Source of the DNA: a virus
Strand: one strand, 5' to 3'
IMG/VR virus record: IMGVR_UViG_3300025098_000162
Location: 1-33,002 of that record
DNA length: 33,002 nucleotides
Part shown: in pieces, positions 2,724-26,017 of the stretch
Layout: every line of letters starts with the position of its first letter
Numbering within the stretch: position 1 is the first letter of the stretch
Notes under the pieces: generated by a model
The model's database searches: none
What the model was told of the DNA's origin: nothing
What the model saw: the letters and a program-made list of their open reading frames with translations, nothing else
Position numbers and translations under genes: made by a program

Positions 2724-2731
2724 GTAGATCT

Positions 2732-2737
2732 TTTATA
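2732..2737 (+). promoter_or_regulatory. candidate phage promoter motif TTTATA
   Basis: TTTATAGG lies just after the terminator and 43 bases before the start at 2780. The same TTTATA core followed by C or G occurs at similar distances before several other starts in the window, which is the reason for listing it. No -35 element is evident. Confidence 0.4.
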
Positions 2738-2779
2738 GGTTCTTCATTGGTAGCCATATTAACCAAATGGAGAATTATT

Positions 2780-3886
2780 ATGAGAAGATCAGCAAGTTTT
2801 GGTGACATCCTCGTTGATGTCATCGAAAAATATGAAGATGAGCTAATGGCTCTTGATTCAGAGTATATTGATGGTGGTGATGACTACGCTAACCGAAAAC
2901 AAGATGCTCTTTTTGGAGGGGACCTAGATACAGCTCTTTTGTTCACTCGTGATCGCAGAGTCAAAGAAGTGTTGCTAACTATTCAATCAGATCTTGATCG
3001 TATCGAGAAAGGGGAGATTTCTATTAGAAGATCAGCATCCGATACCATCAGAAATCTTGAGGCTCGTGTAGCCCGACTCGAATATAATCGAGGACAAGCC
3101 TATATCAACCTCGATCTTGTGGGAGAAAACTTTCGCACAGGAGTTAATCTTGCTCACTATATTGTTGACGAAGGCTTTGATCATTTGATGGAGGGTAAGC
3201 TATTCATTAAGGATGGATTGAATCTTGTGGATTATCATATTGGTAGCAACCTTGAAAGGTTCGAGACTCTGTTGAAACAAGAGATGGTAATGACTCTTGA
3301 AGATGTTTCAATCGGGAATCATAGAAGCACGAGTAATGCTGATCCAGAAGAACTTGAAGATCTGAACCTTCCCGATGTCCAAGACCTCAATCGTTCAAGA
3401 GTGAGTGTGGAGCGAGTAATTTCTCCAACATCGGGTACTCCTGGATACCTTGTTAAAGTTAATGGTGGGTCGGGTATTAAAGTCGCTCGCTTTGAGAGGT
3501 CGGCAGGGACTATGGACTTTTTTAAGTCTTATAATCGCAGGGCAGGGGAGATCGTCAAAGAGATCAATGGTATCTTACCTATTGGTATCTTTGCGTCTAA
3601 GCCAGAGAAGGTAAGTAAGAAGTCTAGGCAAGCTAAGGCGATTTTCAGAGGTTATATTGGAACAGCCAACTCTCTTTCAGTTGATTTTGACTCAGACCGA
3701 CATTATAGGATTGTGTTTCTTTCTGATGACGATTATCGGTCGCCTTTAGAATACGGACTCGATGACTTATATACTCAGAGTTCTTTTACTTTTTACCTTG
3801 ATGGTAAAGCTGTGGCGACTGCAAAAAATGGGGAGATGGATCACACCTTTTTAAGTAAGGTTAAAAGAGCGTATAGATCTCAATAG
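2780..3886 (+). CDS. RRSAS-tagged protein with an internal second tag
   Basis: 368 residues, function not recognised. The start at 2780 rather than the upstream ATG at 2747 is chosen because GGAGA precedes it and because leader and N-terminus (MRRSAS) match the next two genes. Residues 83-101 contain a second copy of the tag (RRSASDTIRNLEARVARLE), a predicted short coiled coil with hydrophobics at a/d spacing. Immediately before it lies GGGGAG and an ATT codon at 3023 exactly where the sister genes have their binding site and ATG, so this gene looks like an in-frame fusion of two tagged genes. The central and C-terminal parts are soluble, mixed alpha/beta in appearance, with no catalytic motif seen. 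First of three tagged genes in a row. Confidence 0.75.
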   Translation: MRRSASFGDILVDVIEKYEDELMALDSEYIDGGDDYANRKQDALFGGDLDTALLFTRDRRVKEVLLTIQSDLDRIEKGEISIRRSASDTIRNLEARVARLEYNRGQAYINLDLVGENFRTGVNLAHYIVDEGFDHLMEGKLFIKDGLNLVDYHIGSNLERFETLLKQEMVMTLEDVSIGNHRSTSNADPEELEDLNLPDVQDLNRSRVSVERVISPTSGTPGYLVKVNGGSGIKVARFERSAGTMDFFKSYNRRAGEIVKEINGILPIGIFASKPEKVSKKSRQAKAIFRGYIGTANSLSVDFDSDRHYRIVFLSDDDYRSPLEYGLDDLYTQSSFTFYLDGKAVATAKNGEMDHTFLSKVKRAYRSQ

Positions 3887-3899
3887 TCTTTTTATCTCT

Positions 3900-3966
3900 T
3901 ATCAATAAGTGATCTCATTAACTACAAACCAAATGGAGAATACCCATGAGAAGATCAGCATCAGAA
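3900..3966 (+). repeat. leader + N-tag repeat, copy 1
   Basis: TATCAATAAGTGATCTC, a variable 12-base stretch, then ACCAAATGGAGAAT and the start codon with AGAAGATCAGCATCAGAA. The block recurs almost unchanged at 4309-4374; a degraded form lacking the first element precedes the gene at 2780. It carries the binding site and the coding sequence for the MRRSASE tag. Confidence 0.8.
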
Positions 3967-4263
3967 ACAATTCGTAATCTTGAATCAAGAATCGCTAAAC
4001 TTGAGAAATCATCTAGCAGAACAGATCGCTTAGAGGAAAAGCAAGATCACGCAAAGAAACTAGAACAAATCTTGAAGCCTGTTTTCGGTTCAAGTCTGCG
4101 AAGCGTGTACTTTGACTACAACAATAGTGATATGTTCATCGCAGAAGTAAGTGCAAGTTTTTGGGAGGAAACAGGTCTTAACAAAAATGGATTAAAGACA
4201 CTTGCAAAGTACACAGAAGGATTTACCCTTGACGGAAACAGAGTTTACTTAAACATTGATTGA
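3946..4263 (+). CDS. RRSAS-tagged small protein
   Basis: 105 residues. It begins MRRSASETIRNLESRIAKLEKSSS, the clearest form of the shared tag, with a coiled-coil pattern (I9, L12, I16, L19). A charged helix (RLEEKQDHAKKLEQIL) follows and then a small domain with mixed strands (VYFDYNNSDMFIAEVSASF). GGAGA lies six bases before the ATG. The middle gene of three; its body has only faint likeness to the bodies of its neighbours (both have ...ILxxx.SS-R...F/Y-strand). No function is recognised. The tag could serve to target the proteins to a common structure such as a prohead, or to make them assemble; this is inference. Confidence 0.75.
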   Translation: MRRSASETIRNLESRIAKLEKSSSRTDRLEEKQDHAKKLEQILKPVFGSSLRSVYFDYNNSDMFIAEVSASFWEETGLNKNGLKTLAKYTEGFTLDGNRVYLNID

Positions 4264-4265
4264 TC

Positions 4266-4282
4266 GAAGCCTTTAGGGTTGG
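4266..4282. repeat. 17-base scar repeat, copy 1
   Basis: GAAGCCTTTAGGGTTGG here is identical to 4818-4834, which encodes the C-terminal NPKGF of the amidohydrolase on the minus strand. Read on the minus strand this copy also gives NPKGF. It appears to be a leftover of the amidohydrolase 3' end created when the tagged gene was tandemly duplicated. Confidence 0.7.
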
Positions 4283-4299
4283 TAGTAATTTGTAGTTTA

Positions 4300-4305
4300 T
4301 TTATA
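4300..4305 (+). promoter_or_regulatory. candidate phage promoter motif TTTATACC
   Basis: GTTTATTTATACCC lies 48 bases before the start at 4354. The equivalent position before 3946 holds CTTTTTATCTC (from about 3889). The motif matches those at 5795, 12783, 20321 and 28500. Confidence 0.45.
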
Positions 4306-4308
4306 CCC

Positions 4309-4374
4309 TATCAATAAGTGATCTCTTTAACCTTAAACCAATGGAGAACTCCTATGAGAAGATCAGCATCAGAA
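4309..4374 (+). repeat. leader + N-tag repeat, copy 2
   Basis: Second copy of the block at 3900-3966: TATCAATAAGTGATCTC, then ACCAATGGAGAAC and the start codon with AGAAGATCAGCATCAGAA. The differences are concentrated between the first element and the ribosome binding site. Confidence 0.8.
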
Positions 4375-4812
4375 ATTATCAGTGAACTTGAGACTCGGAT
4401 TGCCCGTCTTGAAAGAAAAGCCTCACCCTACCGTCCAGACGGATATGACGCATATGAAACTGGAGAGTCAGAGCGACCTCTTGACATCTTTGAGTCTCGG
4501 AGTCGAGATGATGAGAGATGGAGAGATTCTGTCTCAACAGGAGAGAGGGCTGACAAGCAGATTAAGTCTATCCTTAATAGTTCTCGTATTAAGTACACTA
4601 ATAAATATGGTAGATTTATTTTTGCTGACAAAAGGACTTTGGTTAAAGCTCTTGAGGCTTTAGGTGAGAGTCGTTCAGACGCTCGGATTCTTGGTGAGAG
4701 AGGTACTGATCTTCAAGGAGACTTAATAAATCTGTTTGGTAAGTCTTATGAGGTTGCTGTTCCCGATTTGGAAGATGAGCAGTATGAGTACTACTTAGTA
4801 GCATCTTACTAA
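4354..4812 (+). CDS. RRSAS-tagged protein, third copy
   Basis: 152 residues. The start at 4354 is chosen by the GGAGA binding site and the conserved leader; an ATG at 4318 lies inside that leader. The N-terminus MRRSASEIISELETRIARLERKAS is the shared coiled-coil tag. A polar, charged stretch follows (residues ~25-65, ESRSRDDERWRDS), then a domain with KYGRFIFADKRTLVKALEAL and a C-terminal acidic/tyrosine end (DEQYEYYLVASY). No family is recognised. The stop overlaps the stop of the convergent amidohydrolase gene by exactly four bases (CTAA). Confidence 0.75.
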   Translation: MRRSASEIISELETRIARLERKASPYRPDGYDAYETGESERPLDIFESRSRDDERWRDSVSTGERADKQIKSILNSSRIKYTNKYGRFIFADKRTLVKALEALGESRSDARILGERGTDLQGDLINLFGKSYEVAVPDLEDEQYEYYLVASY

Positions 4813-5771
4813 GAAAAGAAGCCTTTAGGGTTGGAGGCGATTTTTGCGATCAAGTCGAGATCATAACACCTAATCGCTTCCATCATTAGGCGACATTCAA
4901 ACCACAGATCCCCATCAACAAGGGGCATGAACAGGTCATGGATGTTGTCTACACCTAACATAACATCGACCCCTCCCTCGATAAGCTCCATGACAGGGGC
5001 TATTGAGTTATGGATCGGTGCAAGTATATCAGAATGTTGTTTCATACTGATTGCCGCACTTGGGCAAACGACTACCCCGATCTCTGCTTCTTGTAGTTTA
5101 GAAATCACACGCTGACGATCTTCTTTTTGCTGACACGCAAGAGAGATCGCATGAACGAGCCTAACCCGACCCTCAAGACCATGTTCAAAGGTCTTATCTG
5201 CAACCATCTCAGACTCACGCTCTGAAGGGGTGTTGTTTTGCCCTACATGAACATCAACTGGCTTGTTCATATCTTTGGCTAGGTTAAAGATAAAGTCCAT
5301 GTGTGCGAGAGGATCTTCATCTCTGTCGGGGAGTCCACCGATCACATCTGCCATCTCACAGGCTTGTATAAACATTTTTTGAGCTTCGGGTTCAAGGACA
5401 CCTTCAAGTGGTTGAACAGCAAGTTGGAGGTCAAACCCTTTCTTTGCGTATTCTCTTTTAAGATTGACAGCGACTTGCATAGGTAGGAGTCCAACGATTT
5501 GGTCAGCATCAATAAATGTACGACACTTAGAGACACCTTGATAGATCAGATGTTCAATACACCGAGCCATTCGAGAGTGGAGTGTGTATTCGGTGTATTC
5601 TTCTTTGAGCTTACGATAAAGTTTCCATTTTTCTTGGAGGCTCGACTGAGAGAGTTTTAGACCTTCTTCGCTGATTAGATATGCCTTGTCAAAGTGTGCG
5701 TGGTGGCAAGCAAACCCACCTAGTTCATCTACTTTGTCCAAAAAAAAACTCTCAATGTGCCAATAGTTCAT
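4809..5771 (-). CDS. cytosine-deaminase-like amidohydrolase
   Basis: 320 residues. Metal-dependent hydrolase of the amidohydrolase superfamily: HxH at H24/H26 (HHAHFDK), H175 (VDVHVGQ), H207 (VRLVHAISLA) and D275 (LGVDNIHDLFMPLVDGD). The order and spacing match the CodA/AtzC group, which deaminates pyrimidine or triazine rings. The catalytic Glu three residues after the third His of CodA is Gln here (Q178), and the HxH is so near the start that the usual N-terminal beta domain is missing; total length is about 100 short of CodA. This may mean a different reaction, as in uncharacterised homologues with Gln at this place. The substrate is unknown; a nucleobase is plausible given purB and thyX in the window. 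AAAAGGAG precedes the start; it is transcribed divergently from the fibre gene. Confidence 0.75.
   Translation of the reverse strand: MNYWHIESFFLDKVDELGGFACHHAHFDKAYLISEEGLKLSQSSLQEKWKLYRKLKEEYTEYTLHSRMARCIEHLIYQGVSKCRTFIDADQIVGLLPMQVAVNLKREYAKKGFDLQLAVQPLEGVLEPEAQKMFIQACEMADVIGGLPDRDEDPLAHMDFIFNLAKDMNKPVDVHVGQNNTPSERESEMVADKTFEHGLEGRVRLVHAISLACQQKEDRQRVISKLQEAEIGVVVCPSAAISMKQHSDILAPIHNSIAPVMELIEGGVDVMLGVDNIHDLFMPLVDGDLWFECRLMMEAIRCYDLDLIAKIASNPKGFFS
4818..4834. repeat. 17-base scar repeat, copy 2 (inside amidohydrolase)
   Basis: Identical to 4266-4282. Here it is part of the coding 3' end of the amidohydrolase, so this is the presumed original and the other the duplicated fragment. Confidence 0.7.
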
Positions 5772-5794
5772 GTGCAGACTCCTTTTGTTTTCTT

Positions 5795-5800
5795 TTTATA
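5795..5800 (+). promoter_or_regulatory. candidate promoter for the first fibre gene
   Basis: CTTTTTATACCCC lies in the 68-base divergent gap, 39 bases before the start at 5840. It shares the TTTATACC core with the sites at 4300 and 12783. Confidence 0.45.
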
Positions 5801-5817
5801 CCCCGACATTTAATAGA

Positions 5818-5823
5818 TATAAA
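5818..5823 (-). promoter_or_regulatory. candidate promoter for the amidohydrolase
   Basis: On the minus strand the sequence reads TTTTTATATC, 47 bases before the start at 5771. It has the same TTTATA core as the plus-strand sites, but the flanks agree less well. Confidence 0.3.
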
Positions 5824-5839
5824 AATAAAGGAGTTCACC

Positions 5840-8800
5840 ATGAGTTCATTTGGTTCGGGTTCAACCACCACAGCAGGTGCGTCTATCACTCTTAGAAACT
5901 ACACAGGCACAGATGGAAATCAAGCAGGAACAGACGGTCTTGTACCAGGGCCAGGCATTGCACAGGCAGGCTATGTTCTAGGTGCAGGGGGCGATTGGAC
6001 ACTTGATGTCCTAGCCATCAACGACCTCGCAGATGCTACTAATCGGATTGCTACTACAGCTTTTGTTCAAAATCGAGTTGCACAGATTGTTGCAGGTGGT
6101 GGGGGTATTGTTCTTGGAGGACTCCAAGATGTTGATCTTGCAGGTCTAGCTGATGACCAACTCTTACAATACAATCTAGCTGATTTAGAGTGGCAACCTG
6201 TCACTCTCACTCTCTCTTTGATTTCAGATGTTGATCTTGCAGGACTCCAAGATGGAAACGCTCTTGTTTATGATGCAGCCGCTAATAATGGGAACGGTGG
6301 TTGGGTTCCTGGTGAGGGTGGTGGTGGAGGTGCAGGAAATCTTAATGAGTTGGGTGATGTGACGATCAATGGAGGTGCTGACAAGCATTTCCTAGTTCGG
6401 AACGCTCAAGGTCAATATGTAAACCGATTGATTTCTACTGCTGACCTTAGTGATGAGGCAGATCTCGTCTTAGAGACAAGAGGAGCTACCTTTGGAGCTT
6501 TTGACTATGACTTTACAGGTGCTAACTCTATTACAGTTAAAGCCCCTGTTGGAGCTAATGACGCTACTACTAAGACTTATGTCGATACACAAGTAGCTAC
6601 GAAACAACCGATTGATGCCACTTTAACAGCTCTTGCTGGAGTGGTGACTGTTGCTGATAAACTCATCTATGCGACAGGTGCTGATGTTTTTGCGACCACA
6701 GACTTTACAAACTTTGGTCGAACTCTTATAGCGAACGCAAACGCTGGTGAAGCTCGTACTGATCTAGGATTAGGTACTTCAGCAGTCGAGGATGTTGGGG
6801 TCTTTGCACAGGTAGCAAATAACCTCAATGATCTAGCTGATGCAGGTACAGCCCGAACGAACTTAGGTTTAGGTACTTCTGCTGTAGAGCCTGTAGGCAC
6901 ATTCGCCCAAGTAGCAAATAATCTTAATGATCTAGCTGATGCAGGCACAGCTCGTACTAATCTTGGCTTAGGTACAGCCGCTGAGAGTGAAGTTGGAGAT
7001 TTCTTAGCTTCTAATGCTGACATAGACGATCTTGGTGGTATCTCGACAGCTGGTAAGGCCGAAGGCAAAATCCTTAAGTTCAACGCTCAAAATAATCTTG
7101 TAGTTGCTGATGATGAGGGCAAGACTCAAGAAGAAATCGAGGACATCGTTGGAGGTATGGTTGATGGTAATACTGAGACAGGTATTACTGTAACCTATCA
7201 AGGTGCTGATAATACTCTTGACTTTGTGGTCGATAACACAGTTGTGGGCTTCCTCGCAGGTAATCAAACCTTCAATGGAGACAAGACTTTCACAGGTGCT
7301 GTCGATCTTACAGGTGCTACAGCGACTGGTGCTACTCAAAACGCTTCGGACAACTCTACAAGTTTAGCGACTACAGCCTATGTCGATGCTCAGATCGACA
7401 CCGACATAACTGCTCTTGATCTCCCTAATAACTATCAAGGGCTAAATACAAACCTCACAAGTATATCGGGACTCAACATTGTTGATGGGTCAATGGTGAT
7501 AGGTGATGGGAATAACTCTTTTGAGATCTTAACCATTCAACTTGGGGTTGAGAACTTCTTAAAGAGTACAGGTCGTGTAGCCGCTCTTTCTGATGTGACT
7601 GTTAATAACGATGCACTGAACAACGCTAATCATATTCTCGTTAGTACAGGAGCAGGTGGTTTTGAAAGTCAGACGATTTCTACAACTAATCTCTCTAACA
7701 GTGGGGATATAGTCTTAGAGACTGCCGATGCGACCTTTGGAGCTAACACCTATGACTTTACAGGTGCTACAGCGATTACAGTTCCTGCACCTAATAATGC
7801 TTCCGATGCTACAACCAAGACTTATGTAGACACTCAAGTCGCTACAAAGCAAACTTCAGATGCTACTTTAACTGCCCTTGCAGGACTTGCAACAGGAGCT
7901 AAAAAGCTCATCTACTCTAATACAGGGGATGACGACTTAGAGATGATTGGTCTTTCAGATAATGCCAAGACCTTCATCTCCTCAGATGCAGAGCTTGGTG
8001 ATCTTGATAAAGTCACTATCGCTGGAGACATTGGGAATGGAAATGATGGTGAAACACTAAGATGGGATGGTGCTAACCTCGAATGGAAGAACTCGAAACT
8101 CGCTTTTGGCGATCTAAATCAGAATGTTGCTTCGACTCAGAATGTTGCTCTTTTAAATGGAGAGCAAACATTCAGTAATAACATCACATTTACAGCAGAG
8201 GTAGACCTTACAGGGGCGACAGCGACAGCAGAAACAGTAGCTAATAATAATGTCGAGGGTAACTCAACTAGGATCGCTACTACAGCATTTGTTAAAAATG
8301 TAGTTAATCAAGTAGGTGGGGTTTCAGACCTTGCCGACCTTACAGATGTGGCTCTTGGTGCAGACAATGGGAATGGTGTCGCAGAAGAGGTAGGTCAGGT
8401 TTTAAGGGTAAGTGCTGTTGTAAACAATGTCGCTACCTTCAGAAATGCTTCGTTGTCATTTGATGACTTGTCCGACACAGGAAATGTAGTTGAGACAGAT
8501 GCGAACGCTACTTTCGGTGCTTTCTCATACGACTTTACAGGGGCTACGATTACAGTACCAGCTCCACAAAATGGAGCAGAGGCCACAACTAAGACTTATG
8601 TTGATACTGAAGTCGGCGGTAAGCAAGACTCCAATGCCCGTCTTGATGACATCGCTGGTCTTGGGGTTGATAACAACCACTTTATTGTTGCTGATGGTGC
8701 GAACTTTACTCTTGAAAGCCCGACAGATGCTATTACGAGCTTGGGTATGGGGGTCGGTAATAACGATCTCTTGATTGGTACAGGGGCGAACACTTTTGGA

Positions 8801-11800
8801 ACGATTGCTACCACAGCAAATGGTAGATCTTTCCTTGCTTCCGAAGCAGGTGTGAATGACCTTTCAGATGTTTTGATTGCAGGTGTCGCAAACGCTCAGA
8901 TCCTTGTCTATGATGCAGATGGTGGAGCGAACGATAACCAATGGAAGAATGTCTCGTTATCGGGAGACATCACAATCAGTAATGCAGGTGTCGCAACGAT
9001 TGGTGCTCTTGCTGTTGAAGAAGGTATGATTGCCAACAATGCGATCACTACTGATAAAATCAATAACGGTGCTGTAACCAATGCCAAGCTAGAAAACAGC
9101 TATGTTTCGATTACTGATGGTGCGAATACGGACACCCTTCCTCTTGGTCAGACCTTTACATTCAACAATGTGGAGAATGAGACAACCGTTGTTGTTTCAG
9201 CAGATCAAGGTGCTGGTGCAGACGGAGTTGAGATCACCATTGGGCTTCCCGATGATGTGACGATTGCTCAAGACCTCACAGTAACAAGAAATCTTATCGT
9301 CAATGGAACGACAACGACTCTTAATACTGCGACTCTTGATGTTGAAGATACAATCATTCGACTCAATAAAGGTGTGATGGATCTTAATGATGGTGCAGGT
9401 GGTGCTAACCCTAACGACATCGGATTGTTCTTTGAGAGAGGTACTACAGGAGATGACGCTATCTTCTATTGGGATGAAGGGGATGATTTCTTTAAACTTG
9501 GTCTAACAACCAATGACGACCATGAAGCTACAGATTTCGGAGCGACTACAACTCCAGGTGGATTACAGATCGGCTCGCTTGAGCTTAGAGATAATCTCGC
9601 AACTTCATTAGTAGTTAAAGAGGGAGCGAACGCTTATCTCACATTCGATACCTCTGATGGAACAGAGAAGGTTGTATTTGGTAAGGTCTTTGAAGCAGTT
9701 TCAGCTTCTAAGATTGGTAATGTAGAGATTTCAGATGGTCAGATCCAAACGACTGCTGGAAATAACAACCTCTCATTCAATGATAATAACTTAACCACAA
9801 CAGGTACAGCGAACTTCGGGGCGACCACAGTTGACTCCCTTGATGCTTCAAATGGTGGGATTACACAAGCAGGGGCGATCAGTGGGATTACAAGTCTTGC
9901 TGGTGCTTCGATGGATCTCCTACTAACAGATAATGATGCTGACGCACTTGACATTCGAGAAGCAGGTCTTGGTTCATATCTGACTTTTGATACTACCGAT
10001 GCTCAAGGGCAAGTTGTTGTAAATGAGGGTGGGGCTGACATCGACTTTAGAGTCGAGGGCGATAACTCCGACCACTTGATCTTTACTCAAGCGAGTACAG
10101 ATCGTGTGGGTATCAACACGAATAACCCGACAGCTCTTTTCCATGTAAACGGAAATAGCATACTTGTAGGAGACTTAACTCAAAGTGGTGGTGCTGTTGT
10201 TTTCAACAATGACCTTGGAGACAATGACTTCCGAGTAGCAGGCGACAATCAAGCCAATCTTTTATTTGTAGACGCTTCTGCCGACTCTGTTGGTATTGGT
10301 AAAAACAACCCAAGTAAGACCCTTGACATATCGGGTACTGTTGCGATTTCTAGCACTCTTGAGGTGGCAGGAAAGACAACTCTTGCAGGATCACTTGATC
10401 TCACAACAGGTTCAGCAACAGGTATTACCTTTAGGTCTGAGATTGCCGATGGTGGGGTAGATGCCGACCAAATTCTTCTAAGAGTAAATCAAGGGGGTGG
10501 AGGACCAGCATATAAGAGCATCAAGTGGGTAGCCGCTGACGATAGGTTCTCTGTTGAAAGCTCTCTCAAGTCCGAAGGCAACTTCATAGTGGGTGATAAT
10601 CAGTTTATCGCCAACGCTACAAACGGAAATCTTACGGTTGGCGGTACAGCTACCATTAATAATGCCGATGGTACAGCCGACCTTATCGTACAGAACAATG
10701 GGGTTGATGTCCTTAATGTAGATGCTTCGGCAGGTACAACCACAGTCACAGGTCAGCTCAAGACTGATGATCTAAGAGCTAAGACTGCTGACGGTGGTGG
10801 AGATGACTTCAAGATTCGCATTGAAGATAATGTTCCGAACGCTCTTGAGATTTCTGATGCTACCAACGCATTGTCCTTCATGGTGTTTGACACCTCAGAC
10901 AATGCAGAACTTATTAACCTTAATCAAGATACCTCATTCACGCTTGATGCTACTTTTAAGCGTGAGATTTCGATTGAGAATACGAACTCTAATGGTTTGT
11001 TTTTCAACTCAAATCGGGCAGGGGTTGCTTCGGAAGACGCTACCCTCATTACGATTGAGGGTGGTAATAACAAGAATGATGCAGTCCTTATTTGGGACAC
11101 ATCAGATAACGCTCTTAACCTCAATGCAGAAGCACAGGTTCACCTACAAGGTCTAAATGGATCAAACGCTCTAACGATTGGTGGTGCGTTGGTTGCCAAT
11201 GCGACCATCGTTATGACGACAGCAGGTGCAATCACTCTTGATGGTACGCTTGATTCCCCAACGATCAATACAGATAAGATCACAGATAAAACAGCAGATG
11301 GTCTTGTCATTGAACTTGCTGATGGTCTAAATGGTAGTGCCCTTTTAGTAAGTGATGCAGGTGGGGCTAACTATCTCACTATCAATACAGATGCACAGAC
11401 CCTTACATTTAATGAGGACGCAAACTTTGATGCTTCGGCTACCTTTGACACCACAGTAGAGGTCACAGGGATTACGACTCTTAATGACTCGCTCAAGGTC
11501 AACAAGGCAGGTTCTGATACAGGTATCATCTTCAATGCTGATCGTGGAGCAGGGGAGGACATCAACGCTCAAGACTTTGACGCACTCCTTCTCCATGTTG
11601 AGAATGGTGGGTCTAACGCTACAGATGCTTACTTCAAGTGGGATGACTCTGAAAGCTCATTCAAGATTGAGGGTGGTAAGCTATTCTCAGCGACCGAGAT
11701 TTCTATTGGGTCAGAAGCAGGTAATGCTCTCACCAAGAACCTCACGATTGGAACTGATGGTGCTGTCGGCACATCGGGTGCGATTACTACTAGCTCAGTA

Positions 11801-12775
11801 GTCAACTTTAGTACAGCTTCTCAAGGTGCGATTGTCTTTAACTCTGATCTTGGTGGAGGTGCTAATCCAGCTGACGATGATGACTTTGGTCTTACAGTTA
11901 ATCGTGGTGCAGAAGCAGACGCTAAACTTTATTGGGACGAGTCAGCAACCACATGGCAGTTTGAGACAGGTAATGTACAGGTTCAGAACTCGCTTGTGGT
12001 TGACTCAGATGCTAATGGTGCGATCACAGTATCAGATGGTTCTATCGTATCAGCTAGTGGTTCTATCAGCTTTGGTGATGACAACCTAACAACTACAGGT
12101 TCAATCACTTCTGCGAGTCCTGCCAACGCTACAGATGACACAACCGTAGCTACAACTGAGTGGGTTCGTGATCGTAGTATTGGCGATTTCTCTGATGTTA
12201 ATCTTGCCGACTTTGATGCCAACGATCAGATCCTCGTATGGGATCAAGTTAACCAAGAGTTTAAAAAGGGAACATCGGTCTATAACGCTGAACTGGCGAG
12301 AGATGATGTCGGTTCGGCTCTAGCAGGTGGTACACATACTTTCACAGGTGCAGATGGAACAATCGCATTTACGAATGATGACGCTAATGATGTGATTAAT
12401 CTCGCTCTAGGCATCACCACTGAAAACTTGAAAGATGTCTCGGCAGACCAAGCAACCAACAATCAAGTCTTGAGGTTTACGACAGCAGAGGGTGCGAACC
12501 AAAACAAGTATGTTCCTACTACACTTGGTACAGCGGCTGATGCAGACACAGGGCTTGATAATGGAGAAATACCAACACTAACAACTCACTATCTCTCAAA
12601 TCAAAGCGAGACAGCAGACCTTATCCTAACAGGTAGAGTTCTTGAGACTATTGACTATGGATTAGTATCCGAAGCCTTTGATGATGCTACCGATTACTCC
12701 ATTGACATGAATGGTACAGGTTTAGGTGATACCGTTATTTATGGCTCGGAGGATTATGGGATGCTTGTAGTTTAA
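5840..12775 (+). CDS. giant tail fibre protein 1
   Basis: 2311 residues. The start at 5840 (MSSFGSGSTTT) has AAAGGAG nine bases upstream; the open frame before it overlaps the divergent gene. The protein is low in Cys and rich in Gly, Asn, Asp, Thr and Ala, and is built of fibre repeats: three copies like ATKTYVDTQVATKQ, several of the form ST.IATTAFV, a 33-residue tandem (ARTNLGLGTSAVE..FAQVANNLNDLADAGT), and blocks around NGTTTTLNTATLDVEDTIIRLNKG and NGLFFNSNRAG. These are typical of trimeric beta-structured tail fibres. No intramolecular chaperone or enzymatic domain was seen; the C-terminus ends in YGSEDYGMLVV. With the next gene it probably forms a long adhesion fibre that recognises the host. 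Which end attaches to the baseplate is not evident. Confidence 0.9.
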   Translation: MSSFGSGSTTTAGASITLRNYTGTDGNQAGTDGLVPGPGIAQAGYVLGAGGDWTLDVLAINDLADATNRIATTAFVQNRVAQIVAGGGGIVLGGLQDVDLAGLADDQLLQYNLADLEWQPVTLTLSLISDVDLAGLQDGNALVYDAAANNGNGGWVPGEGGGGGAGNLNELGDVTINGGADKHFLVRNAQGQYVNRLISTADLSDEADLVLETRGATFGAFDYDFTGANSITVKAPVGANDATTKTYVDTQVATKQPIDATLTALAGVVTVADKLIYATGADVFATTDFTNFGRTLIANANAGEARTDLGLGTSAVEDVGVFAQVANNLNDLADAGTARTNLGLGTSAVEPVGTFAQVANNLNDLADAGTARTNLGLGTAAESEVGDFLASNADIDDLGGISTAGKAEGKILKFNAQNNLVVADDEGKTQEEIEDIVGGMVDGNTETGITVTYQGADNTLDFVVDNTVVGFLAGNQTFNGDKTFTGAVDLTGATATGATQNASDNSTSLATTAYVDAQIDTDITALDLPNNYQGLNTNLTSISGLNIVDGSMVIGDGNNSFEILTIQLGVENFLKSTGRVAALSDVTVNNDALNNANHILVSTGAGGFESQTISTTNLSNSGDIVLETADATFGANTYDFTGATAITVPAPNNASDATTKTYVDTQVATKQTSDATLTALAGLATGAKKLIYSNTGDDDLEMIGLSDNAKTFISSDAELGDLDKVTIAGDIGNGNDGETLRWDGANLEWKNSKLAFGDLNQNVASTQNVALLNGEQTFSNNITFTAEVDLTGATATAETVANNNVEGNSTRIATTAFVKNVVNQVGGVSDLADLTDVALGADNGNGVAEEVGQVLRVSAVVNNVATFRNASLSFDDLSDTGNVVETDANATFGAFSYDFTGATITVPAPQNGAEATTKTYVDTEVGGKQDSNARLDDIAGLGVDNNHFIVADGANFTLESPTDAITSLGMGVGNNDLLIGTGANTFGTIATTANGRSFLASEAGVNDLSDVLIAGVANAQILVYDADGGANDNQWKNVSLSGDITISNAGVATIGALAVEEGMIANNAITTDKINNGAVTNAKLENSYVSITDGANTDTLPLGQTFTFNNVENETTVVVSADQGAGADGVEITIGLPDDVTIAQDLTVTRNLIVNGTTTTLNTATLDVEDTIIRLNKGVMDLNDGAGGANPNDIGLFFERGTTGDDAIFYWDEGDDFFKLGLTTNDDHEATDFGATTTPGGLQIGSLELRDNLATSLVVKEGANAYLTFDTSDGTEKVVFGKVFEAVSASKIGNVEISDGQIQTTAGNNNLSFNDNNLTTTGTANFGATTVDSLDASNGGITQAGAISGITSLAGASMDLLLTDNDADALDIREAGLGSYLTFDTTDAQGQVVVNEGGADIDFRVEGDNSDHLIFTQASTDRVGINTNNPTALFHVNGNSILVGDLTQSGGAVVFNNDLGDNDFRVAGDNQANLLFVDASADSVGIGKNNPSKTLDISGTVAISSTLEVAGKTTLAGSLDLTTGSATGITFRSEIADGGVDADQILLRVNQGGGGPAYKSIKWVAADDRFSVESSLKSEGNFIVGDNQFIANATNGNLTVGGTATINNADGTADLIVQNNGVDVLNVDASAGTTTVTGQLKTDDLRAKTADGGGDDFKIRIEDNVPNALEISDATNALSFMVFDTSDNAELINLNQDTSFTLDATFKREISIENTNSNGLFFNSNRAGVASEDATLITIEGGNNKNDAVLIWDTSDNALNLNAEAQVHLQGLNGSNALTIGGALVANATIVMTTAGAITLDGTLDSPTINTDKITDKTADGLVIELADGLNGSALLVSDAGGANYLTINTDAQTLTFNEDANFDASATFDTTVEVTGITTLNDSLKVNKAGSDTGIIFNADRGAGEDINAQDFDALLLHVENGGSNATDAYFKWDDSESSFKIEGGKLFSATEISIGSEAGNALTKNLTIGTDGAVGTSGAITTSSVVNFSTASQGAIVFNSDLGGGANPADDDDFGLTVNRGAEADAKLYWDESATTWQFETGNVQVQNSLVVDSDANGAITVSDGSIVSASGSISFGDDNLTTTGSITSASPANATDDTTVATTEWVRDRSIGDFSDVNLADFDANDQILVWDQVNQEFKKGTSVYNAELARDDVGSALAGGTHTFTGADGTIAFTNDDANDVINLALGITTENLKDVSADQATNNQVLRFTTAEGANQNKYVPTTLGTAADADTGLDNGEIPTLTTHYLSNQSETADLILTGRVLETIDYGLVSEAFDDATDYSIDMNGTGLGDTVIYGSEDYGMLVV
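6752..7003 (+). repeat. 99-base tandem repeat in fibre gene 1
   Basis: About 2.5 units of a 33-residue repeat (ARTxLGLGTSAVExVGxFAQVANN / LNDLADAGT). The shared TGATCTAGCTGATGCAGG lies at 6829 and 6928, exactly 99 bases apart. Third positions differ between units, so the repeat is selected as protein rather than being a very recent duplication. Confidence 0.85.
11057..11226 (+). repeat. 170-base block shared by both fibre genes, copy 1
   Basis: This block (encoding EGGNNK...WDTSDNALNL...QVHLQGLNGSNALTIGGALVANA) matches 17529-17698 without gaps, with identical runs of 30, 26 and 22 bases. Most of the rest of the two fibre genes is similar only at protein level. Confidence 0.85.
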
Positions 12776-12782
12776 TAGTCTA

Positions 12783-12788
12783 TTTATA
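12783..12788 (+). promoter_or_regulatory. candidate promoter for the second fibre gene
   Basis: GTCTATTTATACC lies in the 58-base gap between the fibre genes, 45 bases before the start at 12834. It is nearly identical to the site at 4300. Confidence 0.45.
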
Positions 12789-12833
12789 CCTAACCAATAT
12801 AGAAACAGATAGTCCGATTTAAGGAGTCCAATC

Positions 12834-15800
12834 ATGGCTGTAAGAAGAGTCCAACTAAGAAGAGGCACTACCAATGACCACACAAATGGTGGTGGCTTTA
12901 CTGGTGCTGTAGGTGAGATCACCATAGACACAACCACTAAATCCATTCGTGTTCACGATGGTGGTCAAGCAGGTGGCTTCGACCTCATGCGAGCAGATAT
13001 GTCTAACAACCTCGCAGTCACCGGGGACATCAACTTCACTGATGATGCCCATGTGATTGGAGGGGCAATCAACACAGGTGGAGATGCCACACACATTCTC
13101 GATCTTGGTGCGGCTAATACCACTGTTCGTGTTCGAGGTACATTAAGTGTTGCGAACCAAACAACGCAAAATGACCTCCTTATCGAAAATAAGGTTATCG
13201 TTCTCGCTGATGGCGATGAGGGTGAACCAAACAGCAATGACTCTATTGGTATCCTCTTTACTAGAACCTTAGATACTCAAGATCCTGCTCAAGCCCAAGA
13301 CCCTGCATTGCTTTATTGGGACGAAGCGGCTGATCGCTTTAGGCTTGAAACCAACGATGTTACCGAAGCAGACGCGGATTGGAGAGCAGGAGCAACTGGT
13401 GCCGATTTAACTCTTAGGACTCTATATGCTCAGACTTCGGTTGATGTTAATGACGGAAACATCACCAATGTTGGACAGATTTCTTTGGCCTCAATCACTT
13501 TTGCTGACGCAGGTGCTTTCATTACGGTTACTGCCGAAGATGCTCTTGATGGTAAGGCATTTAATCTAAATGATGGAGGTGGTACTGAATACCTCACTAT
13601 CAACACAAATGCTGAGTCTACCACTCTAGGTGTACCTGCTAAGACAACGACTATTAGATCGAATACTGTAGATTTAGGAACAGACGCCGCTAATGATGTC
13701 GCTTTAGGTGTTGTAGCTCGAACAGGGGCTAATAATGCAGGTCAGTCTTTAACCATCTCAGCAGGTTCTGCTCCTACAGGTGGAGGTGAGAACCTTGATG
13801 GTGGTGATCTTATCCTTGCAACAGGTGCAGGTGATGGAACAGGTACAGCTTCTATTCAGTTCCAAACTAAAGTTTCTGGTACTGATACTGTAGCCGAGCG
13901 TATGCGTGTCCACACTAATGGTAATGTGGGTATCGGTGAAAATGCACCCGATACTCTCTTACACATTTCTGGTGCTGATACAGCGACTCTCACTCTTGAG
14001 AATACTACAGGTGGTAATGCTCAAGATGATGATCCCTCGACTATCTCATTTAAGGGTAATGCTCAAGTTAAGGCTCTAGCACAGATTGTAGGTGCTCACG
14101 ATGGGGTGGCAGATGACGATAAGGGTGTTCTTATCTTCAAGCCAAATAATGATGCCGACCCCACAGAAGCTCTTAGACTCGACTCGGCTCTTAAGGCTAC
14201 TTTTGCAGGTGCTGTAGAAATCGCTACCTCTCTCGATCTGACTGATGGTGCGATCAACAATGTGACTACTATTGATCTCGATAAAATTACAGATCGGGCG
14301 AATGATGGTATTGAGATTGAACTCCAAAACGGACAAGCTAGTGCGTTAGTTATTGATGACACAAATGGTGATACATTCTTAACAATTAACGCAGACGCTA
14401 ATACGATTACGCTTGGTCAAGCGACTACGCTTTCTTCGACACTCCAAGTGGACGGTGGTACTGCTACCATTCAAGGTGTTGAGGGTGGAACTGCTTCTCT
14501 TTTCCTCAATGCTGATGAAAGTGATGATGCAGGTGATAATTGGAGAGTCCAAGCTACAGATCATGCTACGAGAACTCTTGCCTTTGCAGGTGAGAATGAC
14601 GCTGGTAATGGTTATGTAGATGTTCTTACTCTTACAGGTGCGAATACAGAAGCGACTTCCTCTGCTACTGTTAAGGGAACACTTATTGTAAATGGAGAAA
14701 TCCAATCTGCGACAGACCTTGTTTTCCAAGTAGACAACGACAATAATGGAGACAACAAGTTCTCTTTCCAAGATGGTGATAACTCAGAGGTCGCTTCACT
14801 TACAGAAGCAGGTATCCTTACAGTCACAGGGTTATCCAACCTTAATGGTGGCATTGCAGTTGATACCAATAAGTTCACTGTTGCAGGTGATGACACTGGT
14901 AATACAGCGACTAAAGGAACGCTCACAGTTAGTGGCAATACAGTAGTTGGTGTTCAAGGTGAAGGTAGCCCGAACCTAAGCGTTATAAACAACGGAGGAA
15001 CGACCACCTTTAGCGTAACAGGTGCGACAGGGAATACGGCTGTCGCAGGTACGACTACTCTAAGCAACACCCTTAACATCGTTCAAGGTGTTGCTAGTGG
15101 TATCGTGTTCAACTCTGATCGTGCTAACGAGGCTGACCAAGATGCCTCTCTGATCTTAGTTAAAGACGCAGATGGTGGTACTGATGGTGCTTTTGCTTGG
15201 GATGATGGGTTAAACACCTTCTCATTCAGTGGTAGTAAGCTCAACTCTGTACTCGACTTTAGCGTTGGTACTCTCGCTACACCATCGACTACTATCAGTG
15301 CTACAACAGGTGCGATTGCTACAGCAGGTACAGCACCTGTTCTTACACTAAAGAACACTACAGGTGGTAATGGTGACGCTGATAGTCCAACACTAATTAA
15401 CTTCCAAGATGACGATGGTGCAGACCTCGCTCGTATTCAAGGCTCTCACGATGGTGGGGTTGACGATACTAAGGGTGATTTGATCTTCTCTACCAATGGT
15501 GGTGGGGGTCTTTCAGAAGCTCTTAGACTTGACTCGGCTAATCTTGCAACTTTTGCAGGGAACATCACAGCTCAAGACATCACAGCGAGTAATGGCACAA
15601 TCACTGTAGGTGCTAGTGGAGCTTCGATTGTAGCGACTGACGCTGATACACTTACGATCACAGAAACTACCATCGTAGCCGCAGGCAATCTCCAAGTTAA
15701 TGGAAACATTACAGGTGCTAATGAGGCTAAAGAAATCTTTGTGGCGAGTGTGGCTGAAGCAAGCACCATTACACTTGGTGGAGGTGGTACAGTCGTTTCG

Positions 15801-18800
15801 GGTGGTAAACTACGACTCGGTTCAAACATCATCGAGAACTCTGCTTCGGAGACTACGATCACTCTTGATGCCAATCAGAGAACTACTCTATCGGGTGATC
15901 TTGCTGTAGTCGGTGGTGCTAATGGTGGTTTAGGGGCGACCACAATCTTACTTGGTGCAGATGCGGCTAGACACTCAGCGATTAAAGTTGTGGCTCGTAC
16001 AGGGGCTAATGATGGTCAAGACCTCACTATCGAAGCAGGTTCAAGTGCTACCAATCAAGTAGACCAAGATGGTGGTGATCTCATCCTTTCATCTGGTGGC
16101 GGTGATGGTACAGGTACATCAGATATGGTCTTTAAGACTAAGATTACCAATGTAGACGCACCGACTACAAAGATGACTCTCAAGGGTAGTGGTAGATTGG
16201 GTCTTGGAGAGACAGCTCCAGACACTCTCTTACACTTGTCTAACGCATCTTCTCCAACCATCACTTTACAGAACCTCACAGCTTCTCAAGCAGAAGATGG
16301 TCGTTCGAGTGTGATTAAGTTTGTTGGTCAGAACAATGCAAACACAGAGGGCGAACTCGGAAACATTACCACAGCTCACGATGTGGGTAATGCGACAGCC
16401 GCAGGTAAGATGGTCTTTAGCTTGTTCAACAGTGTTGATAATGCTGTAGGCTCGGTCTTGACCCTCGACTCTGCTAAGAAAGCTACCTTTGCTAAAGATG
16501 TTGAGATCACAGGTGACCTCATCGTACAGGGGGATACCACTACGATTAATACTGCAACTCTCGATGTTGAGGATGCAGTTATTCGTATTAACAAGGGTGT
16601 AGCAGGTGGGGCTAATGCCAACGACATCGGTATCTTCTTTGAGAGAGGTACTGATGGAAATGACGGTATCTTCTTTTGGGGTGATGATGAGAGCTATTTC
16701 ATTCTCGGTACGACTACAGCCGCTCACACAGCAGTAGACTTTGCAGGTTCTACAACACCTAGTGGGTTGCAGATTGCTTCTCTTGAACTAAGAGATGATA
16801 ACGCAACCTCCCTCGTCATTAAAGAGGGAGCGAACGCATACATTACCTTTAACACACTCAATGCCGATCCGGGTGCAGGTAATGAGCAAGTAGAGTTCGG
16901 AAAGATCTTCACAGCCATTACAGGCTCAAAGATTGGTAATCTTACTCTTGCTAATGGGTCAATCACAGATAGTGGCAGTGCTATCAGCTTCGGTGATAAC
17001 ACACTAACCACAAGTGGTCTTGCGAGTCTTGACGGTGGTATTGATGTCAATGGTGAAGTGTTCACAGTATCAAATCTTGGTGCGACTGTTATCAAGAATA
17101 CTTTGACGCTTAACAACGCAGGGTCTACCTCTGACCTTGATGTTCAAGCTAACGGAACATCAGTCTTTAAGGTAGATGTGTCAGCACTAGACGCTATTGT
17201 TGGTGCAACTTCAACGCTCTTTACGAATAAGATCCAAGCTACCTCAGATGCTGACGATTCGCTCCAACTTTACCTCAAAGACAATACAGCTCTTGGTCTT
17301 GTTGTTTCAAATGTGAGCGACGATGTTGACTTTATCACAGTTAAGACAACGACAAACTCGGAGCTTATCACTCTTGTTCAAGCAACCTCTATCAGCGAGA
17401 CTTTAGAAGTTGTTGGTAATGCGACCTTTGATGCTGAAGTAAACATCGAGCAGGCGAATACCAATGGTATCTTCTTCAACTCGGATCTTGGAGCGAACCC
17501 TTCAATAGACGCTACTCTTATTACAGTTGAGGGTGGTAATAACAAGGGTGATGTGGTTCTCGCTTGGGACACATCAGATAACGCTCTTAACCTTAACGGG
17601 AACTCACAGGTTCACCTACAAGGTCTGAATGGATCAAATGCTCTAACGATTGGTGGTGCGTTGGTAGCTAACGCTACAATCACTATGACTACAGCCGGTG
17701 CGATTACAGCGACCTCAGCGACTTCGGCTTTTGCTTCGGGAACTACCATTGGTAATGTGACTTACAGCAATAATGAGATTGCAGGTGCGACTGATACCAC
17801 TCTAACGATTAAAGCTGAGACTGATCTGATCTTCCAGATTGACTCTGACAACGATGGTGGAGATGTTCAAAAGTTCTCGTTCCTAGATGGTGCAGGAACA
17901 GAAATCGCTAACCTCAGTGAAGTTGGTGATCTTCAGATTGATGGCGATCTTAGTGTTGATGGTGGAGACATTACCCTTACAGGTGGTCAAGACACCAACG
18001 CTGAGATTGAACTTAAGTCTGATGCAGGTGATGACGCTGGTGATAGTTGGAACATTTTAGCGACAGCTAATAGCGATCAACTCACCATTGGTAATGACAA
18101 GGCAGATAAGGGTACTTACGAACCAATTCTTACCCTTGTTGGCAATGCGACAGCGACTGACACTACAGCGACTTTTGCAGGTGATGTACTACTTAATGGT
18201 GGTGATCTTACTGTAAGGAACAAAGTAAACGCAGGTCATGCTGTAATCACTTTGATCGCTGACTCAGCAGGTGACGCTGACGGTGATGATAACGGAGATG
18301 TTTGGAAACTTGATGCCTCAGATGACTCGCAAACTCTTACAGTTTTCAATAACATTTCGGGTGGTGATGTTGCACAGCTTACCCTTGTTGGTAATGGGAC
18401 AGCGACATCGGGTCTAGCAACCTTCGCAGGTGATGTAACGCTCAATGGTAGTGATCTCACAATCACTTCACCAGACGCTACAGCGATTATCAACATTCAA
18501 TCACACTTAGGTGATGCGAATGGTGATAGTTGGAAGATTACAGGTTCAGATGAGAATAATCGTACTTTGACCTTTAGTGGTCAGAATACAGGTAATGCGA
18601 ACTATCAAAATGTACTTGTTTTAACTGCTAACGACACCTTGACTGACTCATTGGCTACCTTTGGTGGTGAGGTGACGATTTCGGGTACAGGCACTAACGC
18701 ACTTGATTTCTCGGCTAATAACATCACCATCGGTAATGCGATTGCAGGTAATACTCTTACTCTCGGTGCGAGTGCTTCGACAGTTGCTATCCCAGGTGAT

Positions 18801-19793
18801 CTTACTGTAGCGACTACTAAGAGCATTACGCTCAATAATGGAGTCGCAAACGCGGCTGCTGATGTTGACGCTTATATCTATGTAGATCGTGGTGCTGATG
18901 ACGATGTGGCTATCCGATGGGATGAGGGTACTGATCGTTGGATGCACACTCTTGATGGCACTAACTATTATAACATTGTCAATGAGAACGATGTCCTATT
19001 CATCATAAATGGTGATAAGGCAGGTACAGACACGATCTCTATTAAAGAGACTGACGAGAGAACAGTTCAGTTCAAGGGTCTGACCGTTGGTACAAATCGT
19101 GGGTTCCAGTTCGATGTTGATAATGCCAATAACACTGTCGAGTTGAGCTTTGAAGATCAAGTTATCATGCCCGACTCTCTCACAGTAAAGGGCATCTCGA
19201 CAATTGAGGGTCAGCTTTTTGTCGAGTCAAATGACATTGACTTTGACTCGGAAAACGCAACTATCGGTGCTAGTATTGGTGCAAATACGATTACCCTCGG
19301 TGGTGCTAACTCTACTGTGGCTGTTGCAGGTTCACTCGTAGTTAATGGAACATCTATTGATGTAGATGGAGCTTCGGCTCTTACTGTTGGTGCAACCGTA
19401 GGTGCGAATGATCTTACACTTGGTGGTGCGACTTCTACTGTTGTTTCAGCAGGTGATCTCAAGGTTGAGGGTAATCTCGTATATGACTCATCAACTCTTA
19501 CGCTTGACGGTAATGGTGAGATTACAGTAACGAAGCCTTACCATAAGGTTGAGGTTAACAACCAAGCTAATAACTCTGAGGATCTTGTATCAATCAACGC
19601 CGCAGGTGTGGTTGCAGGTACTGTTTTGGTCTTACAAGCTAACCATACGGATCGCTCTGTTGTGGTAAAGAACACCAACTTCAAGTTAGCAGGTGATGCA
19701 GACTTTACCCTCGATAATACTGAGGACACCATTTCGTTGATCTATAACGGAACTCATTGGTGTGAGTTGACTCGATCAAGCAATAACGCTTAA
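12834..19793 (+). CDS. giant tail fibre protein 2 with Mtd-type N-terminus
   Basis: 2319 residues. TTTAAGGAG precedes the ATG. The first ~45 residues (VRRVQLRRGTTNDH, GAVGEITIDTTTKSIRVHDG) match the N-terminal domain shared with the major tropism determinant and many fibre or baseplate proteins. The shaft is repetitive: NTATLDVEDAVIRINKG, DSANLATFAG- and LRLDSALKATFAG-type units, and about three ~77-residue units with GDxWK and LTLVGN.TAT. The last ~85 residues (from TVTKPYHKVEVNN) form a non-repetitive end with VLVLQANHTDRSVVVK and LIYNGTHWCELTRS, probably the C-terminal trimer or binding tip. The stop overlaps the convergent membrane protein gene by four bases. Structural role is sure; the receptor is unknown. 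Confidence 0.9.
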   Translation: MAVRRVQLRRGTTNDHTNGGGFTGAVGEITIDTTTKSIRVHDGGQAGGFDLMRADMSNNLAVTGDINFTDDAHVIGGAINTGGDATHILDLGAANTTVRVRGTLSVANQTTQNDLLIENKVIVLADGDEGEPNSNDSIGILFTRTLDTQDPAQAQDPALLYWDEAADRFRLETNDVTEADADWRAGATGADLTLRTLYAQTSVDVNDGNITNVGQISLASITFADAGAFITVTAEDALDGKAFNLNDGGGTEYLTINTNAESTTLGVPAKTTTIRSNTVDLGTDAANDVALGVVARTGANNAGQSLTISAGSAPTGGGENLDGGDLILATGAGDGTGTASIQFQTKVSGTDTVAERMRVHTNGNVGIGENAPDTLLHISGADTATLTLENTTGGNAQDDDPSTISFKGNAQVKALAQIVGAHDGVADDDKGVLIFKPNNDADPTEALRLDSALKATFAGAVEIATSLDLTDGAINNVTTIDLDKITDRANDGIEIELQNGQASALVIDDTNGDTFLTINADANTITLGQATTLSSTLQVDGGTATIQGVEGGTASLFLNADESDDAGDNWRVQATDHATRTLAFAGENDAGNGYVDVLTLTGANTEATSSATVKGTLIVNGEIQSATDLVFQVDNDNNGDNKFSFQDGDNSEVASLTEAGILTVTGLSNLNGGIAVDTNKFTVAGDDTGNTATKGTLTVSGNTVVGVQGEGSPNLSVINNGGTTTFSVTGATGNTAVAGTTTLSNTLNIVQGVASGIVFNSDRANEADQDASLILVKDADGGTDGAFAWDDGLNTFSFSGSKLNSVLDFSVGTLATPSTTISATTGAIATAGTAPVLTLKNTTGGNGDADSPTLINFQDDDGADLARIQGSHDGGVDDTKGDLIFSTNGGGGLSEALRLDSANLATFAGNITAQDITASNGTITVGASGASIVATDADTLTITETTIVAAGNLQVNGNITGANEAKEIFVASVAEASTITLGGGGTVVSGGKLRLGSNIIENSASETTITLDANQRTTLSGDLAVVGGANGGLGATTILLGADAARHSAIKVVARTGANDGQDLTIEAGSSATNQVDQDGGDLILSSGGGDGTGTSDMVFKTKITNVDAPTTKMTLKGSGRLGLGETAPDTLLHLSNASSPTITLQNLTASQAEDGRSSVIKFVGQNNANTEGELGNITTAHDVGNATAAGKMVFSLFNSVDNAVGSVLTLDSAKKATFAKDVEITGDLIVQGDTTTINTATLDVEDAVIRINKGVAGGANANDIGIFFERGTDGNDGIFFWGDDESYFILGTTTAAHTAVDFAGSTTPSGLQIASLELRDDNATSLVIKEGANAYITFNTLNADPGAGNEQVEFGKIFTAITGSKIGNLTLANGSITDSGSAISFGDNTLTTSGLASLDGGIDVNGEVFTVSNLGATVIKNTLTLNNAGSTSDLDVQANGTSVFKVDVSALDAIVGATSTLFTNKIQATSDADDSLQLYLKDNTALGLVVSNVSDDVDFITVKTTTNSELITLVQATSISETLEVVGNATFDAEVNIEQANTNGIFFNSDLGANPSIDATLITVEGGNNKGDVVLAWDTSDNALNLNGNSQVHLQGLNGSNALTIGGALVANATITMTTAGAITATSATSAFASGTTIGNVTYSNNEIAGATDTTLTIKAETDLIFQIDSDNDGGDVQKFSFLDGAGTEIANLSEVGDLQIDGDLSVDGGDITLTGGQDTNAEIELKSDAGDDAGDSWNILATANSDQLTIGNDKADKGTYEPILTLVGNATATDTTATFAGDVLLNGGDLTVRNKVNAGHAVITLIADSAGDADGDDNGDVWKLDASDDSQTLTVFNNISGGDVAQLTLVGNGTATSGLATFAGDVTLNGSDLTITSPDATAIINIQSHLGDANGDSWKITGSDENNRTLTFSGQNTGNANYQNVLVLTANDTLTDSLATFGGEVTISGTGTNALDFSANNITIGNAIAGNTLTLGASASTVAIPGDLTVATTKSITLNNGVANAAADVDAYIYVDRGADDDVAIRWDEGTDRWMHTLDGTNYYNIVNENDVLFIINGDKAGTDTISIKETDERTVQFKGLTVGTNRGFQFDVDNANNTVELSFEDQVIMPDSLTVKGISTIEGQLFVESNDIDFDSENATIGASIGANTITLGGANSTVAVAGSLVVNGTSIDVDGASALTVGATVGANDLTLGGATSTVVSAGDLKVEGNLVYDSSTLTLDGNGEITVTKPYHKVEVNNQANNSEDLVSINAAGVVAGTVLVLQANHTDRSVVVKNTNFKLAGDADFTLDNTEDTISLIYNGTHWCELTRSSNNA
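17529..17698 (+). repeat. 170-base block shared by both fibre genes, copy 2
   Basis: Matches 11057-11226 without gaps and encodes nearly the same peptide (WDTSDNALNLNGNSQVHLQG). The high DNA identity in an otherwise diverged pair suggests gene conversion or recent exchange between the fibre genes. Confidence 0.85.
17941..18690 (+). repeat. ~77-residue tandem repeats in fibre 2
   Basis: Three to four imperfect units of about 230 bases, each carrying LNGGDLT-type, SDAGDxxGDSW-type and LTLVGNxTAT..ATFAGDV-type segments. The edges are approximate. They look like shaft modules that can change in number. Confidence 0.6.
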
Positions 19794-25980: not shown

Positions 25981-26017
25981 TCGTAATCATACCCTGTCGG
26001 TCTTTATATGATTACGA
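25981..26017 (-). repeat. perfect 11-base inverted repeat, 15-base loop
   Basis: TCGTAATCATA (25981-25991) and TATGATTACGA (26007-26017) pair perfectly around a 15-base loop. The hairpin includes the stop codon of the endonuclease-like gene and ends about 11 bases before the binding site of the methyltransferase. There is no T run, so it is unlikely to be a terminator; it may protect or process the message. Its geometry equals that of the hairpin at 27352. Confidence 0.8.

Follow-up and report, generated by a model that had tools for sequence, protein, structure and literature searches.

A genome-specific coiled-coil tag on unrelated proteins of a jumbo-phage clade is a candidate prohead-loading signal

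Why do three adjacent phage genes with unrelated bodies begin with the same residues, MRRSAS, and what would such a common start do for their products? A first-pass annotation of the locus described a promoter-leader-tag cassette common to the three genes and proposed that it sends different cargo proteins to the same place, such as the prohead, or serves as a shared oligomerisation handle. We followed this proposal through the stretch itself, termed the window, and through related virus records in IMG/VR.

Three tagged genes in a fragment of a jumbo phage

The window is a virus record of 33,002 bases, most genes of which match G010, an IMG/VR record of 375,691 bases, at roughly 75 to 97% identity. 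The portal protein of another relative, G006, is 71% identical to that of LR745208.1 (an uncultured phage of 485 kb), 37% to that of Tunturiibacter phage Tunturi_5, and 26.5% to that of Bacillus phage G. These portal identities make the clade a jumbo-phage group with a distant relationship to phage G, and the window is a fragment of such a phage. Relatives of the clade's capsid protein are encoded in 537 IMG/VR stretches.

Open reading frames starting with MRRSAS were found at all three places where the annotation had read them (Table 1). The genes at 3946 and 4354 start with MRRSASExIRNLExRIARLE and, with the tag at 3946 as the query, exactly two other copies were recovered in the window, at 3023 within the first gene (E = 7e-5) and at 4354 (E = 5e-4). 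The first codon of the internal copy is ATT in place of ATG. The leader TATCAATAAGTGATCTC is indeed repeated at the DNA level before the second and third genes, and ACCAA(A)TGGAGAA precedes all three. That one cassette is common to the three genes holds for those at 3946 and 4354 but not for that at 2780, in which the cassette is incomplete: the promoter-like stretch has diverged, the leader is represented by its ribosome-binding end, and the protein start carries only MRRSAS, the coiled-coil copy being internal. The N-terminal ~100 amino acids of the first gene are 47% identical to L145:4335-5393(-). None of the three window proteins was assigned to a Pfam or PHROG family and searches of IMG/VR with the 2780 and 4354 bodies found no relatives, in line with the earlier description of the bodies as largely unrelated. 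Structure predictions were of low confidence (pLDDT 60 and 50), and a search for viral folds returned nothing significant; in the low-confidence model of the 3946 protein, a helix is predicted from residue 5.

Table 1. Positions of the tagged genes and of their cassette elements in the window
Feature	Position	Strand	Basis
Promoter-like TAGATCTTTTATA of first gene, diverged form of TAGTTTATTTATA	2725..2737	+	sequence; near-identical at same locus in G010
Leader end and ribosome-binding site ACCAAATGGAGAA, first gene	2762..2774	+	sequence
First gene, 368 aa, starts MRRSAS without coiled coil; orphan body	2780..3886	+	
Internal full tag IRRSASDTIRNLEARVARLEYNRG within first gene	3023..3094	+	
Promoter-like AATAGTCTTTTTA, second gene	3882..3894	+	sequence
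Leader TATCAATAAGTGATCTC, second gene	3900..3916	+	
Ribosome-binding site ACCAAATGGAGAA, second gene	3928..3940	+	
Second tagged gene, 105 aa; tag codons 3946-4017	3946..4263	+	
Promoter box TAGTTTATTTAT, third gene; exact consensus	4293..4304	+	
Leader TATCAATAAGTGATCTC, third gene	4309..4325	+	
Ribosome-binding site AACCAATGGAGAA, third gene	4336..4348	+	
Third tagged gene, 152 aa; tag codons 4354-4425; orphan body	4354..4812	+	

The tag is a peptide family found throughout the clade

Absence of further tagged genes from relatives had been named beforehand as evidence against the proposal; they are plentiful. A profile built from 20 tags and searched against IMG/VR found the tag encoded in at least 177 stretches, with 31 matches in G010 (376 kb), 25 in G011 (312 kb), 12 in G006 (227 kb), 12 in G003 (83 kb), and 15 in G015 (107 kb). 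Across the loci fetched, 143 distinct tagged proteins were collected, in 132 of which the tag stands at the start methionine, and 139 tagged bodies fell into 90 clusters. The idea of a reusable cassette with differing cargo is thus well supported, with 143 tagged proteins and about 90 unrelated bodies. The tag, with the consensus MRRSASEIIRNLEMRIARLERQAS, is 24 amino acids long and basic (median pI 10.8). L12, E13, R15, L19, and E20 are kept nearly without exception in the aligned tags, an S/T-x-x-E capping box occupies residues 4 to 7, and [RK]QA occupies residues 21 to 23, beyond which there is no conservation.

Coiled coils have a biased composition and strings resembling RIARLE occur widely, and the likeness could in principle be due to chance or low complexity. 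This explanation, to which we assign a negligible probability, is refuted by genome-wide recurrence: the tag sits at the start methionine in nearly all tagged proteins, these have a leader in common, and among 84,980 prokaryote genomes none of 592 pattern matches was confirmed as a tag. A tblastn search of catalogued phages with the 24-residue tag, a weak search given so short a query, gave no match, and profiles of the tag and its core found nothing in LR745208.1, Tunturi_5, or phage G. No description of the tag was found in open-access papers.

Tag versions follow the genome rather than the body

Genomes differ in the version of the tag that they carry: MNKVSAQQIRSLEMRIARLEKEAG in G011, MRTASEVLRSLExRIARLE in G026, MRQLTASQKIAQLENRIARLEKQA in G024, MRRTASEILSDLEIRIARLE in G012, and MISQKLASLEARIAKLE in G038. 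Tags on unrelated bodies were more alike within a lineage (identity of 0.64) than between lineages (0.49), a difference reached in none of 300 shuffles of the lineage labels, and tags on related bodies in different lineages were 0.54 identical (only 0.34 in the variable half). As read from these comparisons, the tag goes with the genome and not with the body and is homogenised within lineages, an unusual natural case of what would be an address code homogenised over unrelated genes. The LR745208.1 orthologue of one tagged body begins straight at the body, without a tag.

A shared promoter and conservation of both DNA and peptide

Upstream of the tagged genes stand, in order, TAATAGTTTATTTATA, CATAAGTGATCTCTTTAACC, and AAATGGAGAA. 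At up to one mismatch, G010 contains 51 copies of the box TAGTTTATTTAT, where 3 are expected, and G006 contains 31 (1.7 expected). Copies stand before the decoration-capsid operon, the WGR gene, and fibre-like genes, and also before a gene named by eye as glutamine synthetase-like, so that use of the box is not exclusive to virion genes. Tagged genes were strongly associated with the box (Fisher P = 1e-7 in G010, and 2e-5 and 2e-3), the gene totals in these tests being approximate ORF counts. Its use before the capsid operon suggests a promoter of the late type. A reading of TATCAATA as a T4 late promoter was dropped, as the most conserved box in the relatives is TAGTTTATTTATA, directly upstream.

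R2 and R3 are encoded by AGA in 62 of 65 and 65 of 67 tags, respectively, compared with 30% in the genome, and the start of the tag is therefore common as DNA. R15 is arginine in 72 of 72 tags, with a codon homozygosity of 0.26 (0.21 in the rest of the genome); an invariant residue with near-random codons indicates that selection acts on the peptide. Conservation thus operates at both the peptide and the DNA level, in different places. These data bear on the alternative that leader and tag serve expression or recombination as DNA or RNA, with the peptide a passive hitch-hiker. The conservation of leader and first codons as DNA and the swapping of bodies at that junction would fit it, but the varied codons of the invariant R15 do not, nor does the LExRIAxLE core, which is kept in lineages with a wholly changed first half, e.g., MISQKLASLEARIAKLE. 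The alternative is largely refuted, and we regard it as very improbable.

Tagged bodies turn over rapidly and are exchanged at the tag

Only 4 of 12 tagged bodies of G006 have a homologue in G010, versus 150 of 164 untagged genes of up to 300 aa, and in G015 2 of 11 tagged bodies are conserved versus 64 of 69 other genes. At the locus in G010 that corresponds to the first gene of the window, the same leader and ATGAGAAGATCAGC are followed by a different tagged protein. This locus is direct evidence, at the level of sequence, that bodies are exchanged with the joint in leader and tag.

Most tagged bodies are without assignment; those with recognisable content include a WGR domain, a JmjC/cupin-like hydroxylase, and a pentapeptide-repeat protein, and hydrophobic, membrane-like segments were seen in one cargo family. 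The cargo lacks the basic charge of T4 cargo (median pI of 6.4 versus 6.1), and a search with a defence-protein library gave only single, weak matches. Could the tag instead be an anchor to the tail, the baseplate, the whiskers, or the surface of the capsid, and not to the prohead core? The tagged genes have the same class of promoter as fibre-like genes, and diverse bodies could be adsorption modules; small soluble bodies and DNA-binding-type WGR, hydroxylase, and pentapeptide domains are unlike adhesins, however, and no fibre-like repeats were noticed in the bodies. We consider an attachment of this kind improbable.

Internal tags were found in the first gene of the window, in a WGR protein near the portal gene, and in one G015 protein with three copies, and probably arose by fusion of tagged units. 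In the WGR protein (L142:14555-16330 (-), L116:18091-19824, and G003 35451-37205), the tag lies some 310 residues in; immediately upstream of it, an ATG and an AAAGGA resembling a ribosome-binding site are conserved, so that a second, short tagged product of this gene is possible. The G015 protein (G015_44957; L146:4957-6255 (-)) is encoded by one ORF with three tags about 145 aa apart, an arrangement also seen in G018.

Head genes and a candidate cleavage motif

The gene order in G006 runs from a protein of 1083 aa through the head maturation protease (PHROG 18299), the scaffold-like, decoration-like, and capsid proteins, and an endonuclease-like protein to a tagged gene; the names scaffold, decoration, and capsid are based on gene order and on resemblance to gp26 and gp27 of phage G. 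The middle of the scaffold-like protein is acidic and hypervariable. The motif [RK]xAS occurs 148 times in the G010 proteome, against about 57 to 60, and 84 times in that of G006, against about 33 to 36, tags being included in these counts. It is enriched in the scaffold-like proteins, where it keeps the same positions although the middles of these proteins are unalignable, and in the head protease, where it is conserved at residue 25 and just past the catalytic part; the capsid protein has no exact [RK]xAS site. Within 18 residues past the tag, [RK]xA is found in 77% of tagged proteins, compared with about 10% at positions deeper in the protein and 26% after shuffling, and the strict [RK]xAS in 18%, compared with 0 to 3%. 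We infer from this distribution that [RK]xA(S) is a site of the head protease, at which tags would be removed.

A coil in the middle of the scaffold-like protein, LAEEIAMLKAANARLxRxxRxLA, is retained in tagged genomes and absent from the tagless LR745208.1 and L280. A related coil persists in L273 and L232, in which no tag was detected, and the coil was for that reason not adopted as a certain docking partner. The opposite charges of the basic tag and the acidic scaffold middle would favour contact.

Two further observations were made on these proteins. The capsid protein (L140:9307-10188 and relatives) is 98 to 100% identical between lineages whose scaffold-like middles are unalignable. A second terminal motif, RVASRYM or [RK]VAx[RK][YF], lies near the N or C termini of unrelated proteins in the proteomes of G010, G006, G011, and W01 (L113-L143, L154-L194), with 10 occurrences versus 0.6 expected in G010 and 9 versus 0.2 in G006; it may be another address or cleavage signal.

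Loading into the prohead as the preferred function

A repeated, selected, and genome-specific tag, a shared promoter, and fast-changing cargo are, on the sequence evidence, established. The most likely function of the tag, in our judgment a probable one, is that of a prohead-loading signal. The prohead target named in the first-pass annotation has thus become the best-supported reading, with the capsid promoter, the scaffold and protease motif, and the turnover of the cargo pointing to it. The oligomerisation handle offered beside it need not be a rival, as a two-heptad coiled coil could do the docking.

Under the loading model, the cassette would be the cargo-loading module of the jumbo-phage clade. 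A promoter shared with the capsid genes would express many unrelated tagged proteins, each beginning with a short, basic, N-capped helix of two heptads (the S/TxxE cap, IxxLExRIARLE, and [RK]QA). This helix would dock the protein into the assembling prohead, plausibly on coiled-coil or acidic segments of the scaffold-like protein, the gene of which adjoins that of the head protease, and the protease may cut at the [RK]xA(S) sites that flank the tag. Once freed, the bodies would stay within the head and pass into the next host together with the DNA, like the internal proteins of T4, and conserved leader and tag DNA would make cargo bodies exchangeable by recombination. More tentatively, and with slightly less than even confidence, we propose a genome-specific address system in which a homogenised coiled-coil tag, a co-evolving scaffold reader, and about 30 exchangeable effectors per virion are combined, with leader and tag DNA as the recombination joint.

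The same helix might instead be an oligomerisation or docking handle for a site other than the head, binding tagged proteins to each other or to a host or phage partner (replication compartment, membrane, or RNA polymerase). Its core has the form of an ideal short coiled coil in which R15 and E20 do not vary, some proteins carry several tags (G015_44957) or internal ones, and the membrane-like segments of one cargo family would suit such a site. The promoter is, however, common to capsid genes, the [RK]xA(S) motif is common to the scaffold-like protein and the head protease and so points to head assembly, and hypervariable bodies suit injected proteins better. A handle for a non-head site is thus unlikely.

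Loading of proteins by short N-terminal peptides has precedents. In T4, the internal proteins are a diverse set of defence proteins in which only the capsid targeting sequence (CTS) is conserved (PMC3012670); the CTS of IPI-III and Alt directs these proteins into the scaffold core, after which it is cleaved off (PMC3012670, PMC5694885). In both systems a short N-terminal peptide is common to diverse, fast-evolving proteins. The tag of the present clade is, however, unrelated in sequence to the CTS and longer (24 versus 10 to 20 residues), is carried by up to about 30 proteins per genome, and exists in lineage-specific versions, and the clade's capsid protein appears phage G-like rather than T4-like, its gene order and size resembling those of phage G gp27. 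PF07068 (Gp23) and PF03420 (Peptidase_S77) had no matches in 13 records, the control genomes likewise being without a match. In phage P1, DarB has an N-terminal packaging signal of >9 and <30 residues, and its first 30 residues suffice for loading of a reporter into the capsid (PMC9024508); that signal was shown for DarB, whereas the clade tag is found on dozens of bodies with a shared promoter. In phiKZ and SPN3US, jumbo phages like those of the tag clade, N-terminal propeptides (mostly >100 residues) are cut by the head protease at A/S-x-E; the ejection proteins of SPN3US have propeptides, and gp53 and gp54 have identical first 15 residues (PMC5694885). In these phages, unlike in the tag clade, no single peptide is reused across dozens of unrelated bodies.

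The T4 protease site [LI]xE is absent from the consensus tag, and T4-type cleavage was dropped. Cleavage of the phiKZ type at [SAG]xE was also rejected: ASE is present in the RRSAS lineage and lost in the tags of G011, G024, and G038. The tag system would work like the T4 CTS, DarB, and SPN3US signals and, judged by sequence and cleavage motif, belongs to none of them; it also appears to carry far more kinds of cargo.

If the loading model is true, one short peptide points to dozens of candidate injected proteins in each genome of these abundant uncultured jumbo phages, mostly of unassigned function and plausibly acting against host defences. The tag would then be a search handle for new effectors, recognition between scaffold and cargo would become testable, and chosen proteins could be loaded into very large capsids. 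The address system, if true, would be the largest capsid-loading set known to us and a modular delivery arsenal.

Other genes of the window

The protein encoded at 596-1708 is modular and ends in a Dps/ferritin-like domain (PHROG 3636). Its homologue in G010 has the same flanks and an additional block of ~178 aa, and homologues in G006 have a metallopeptidase-like HELVHA block, which suggests block swapping in this protein and its homologues. At 28536-29915, a CHAP domain is fused to a PGA_cap domain, and in G010 the PGA_cap part has a second paralogue in tandem. A DUF7487/homing-endonuclease-like protein with several matched stretches is encoded at 26012-27352 (-). The region 5681-19793 holds two giant fibre-like ORFs, of 2364 and 2319 aa, which have segments in common with each other's G010 homologues, as if parts had been exchanged.
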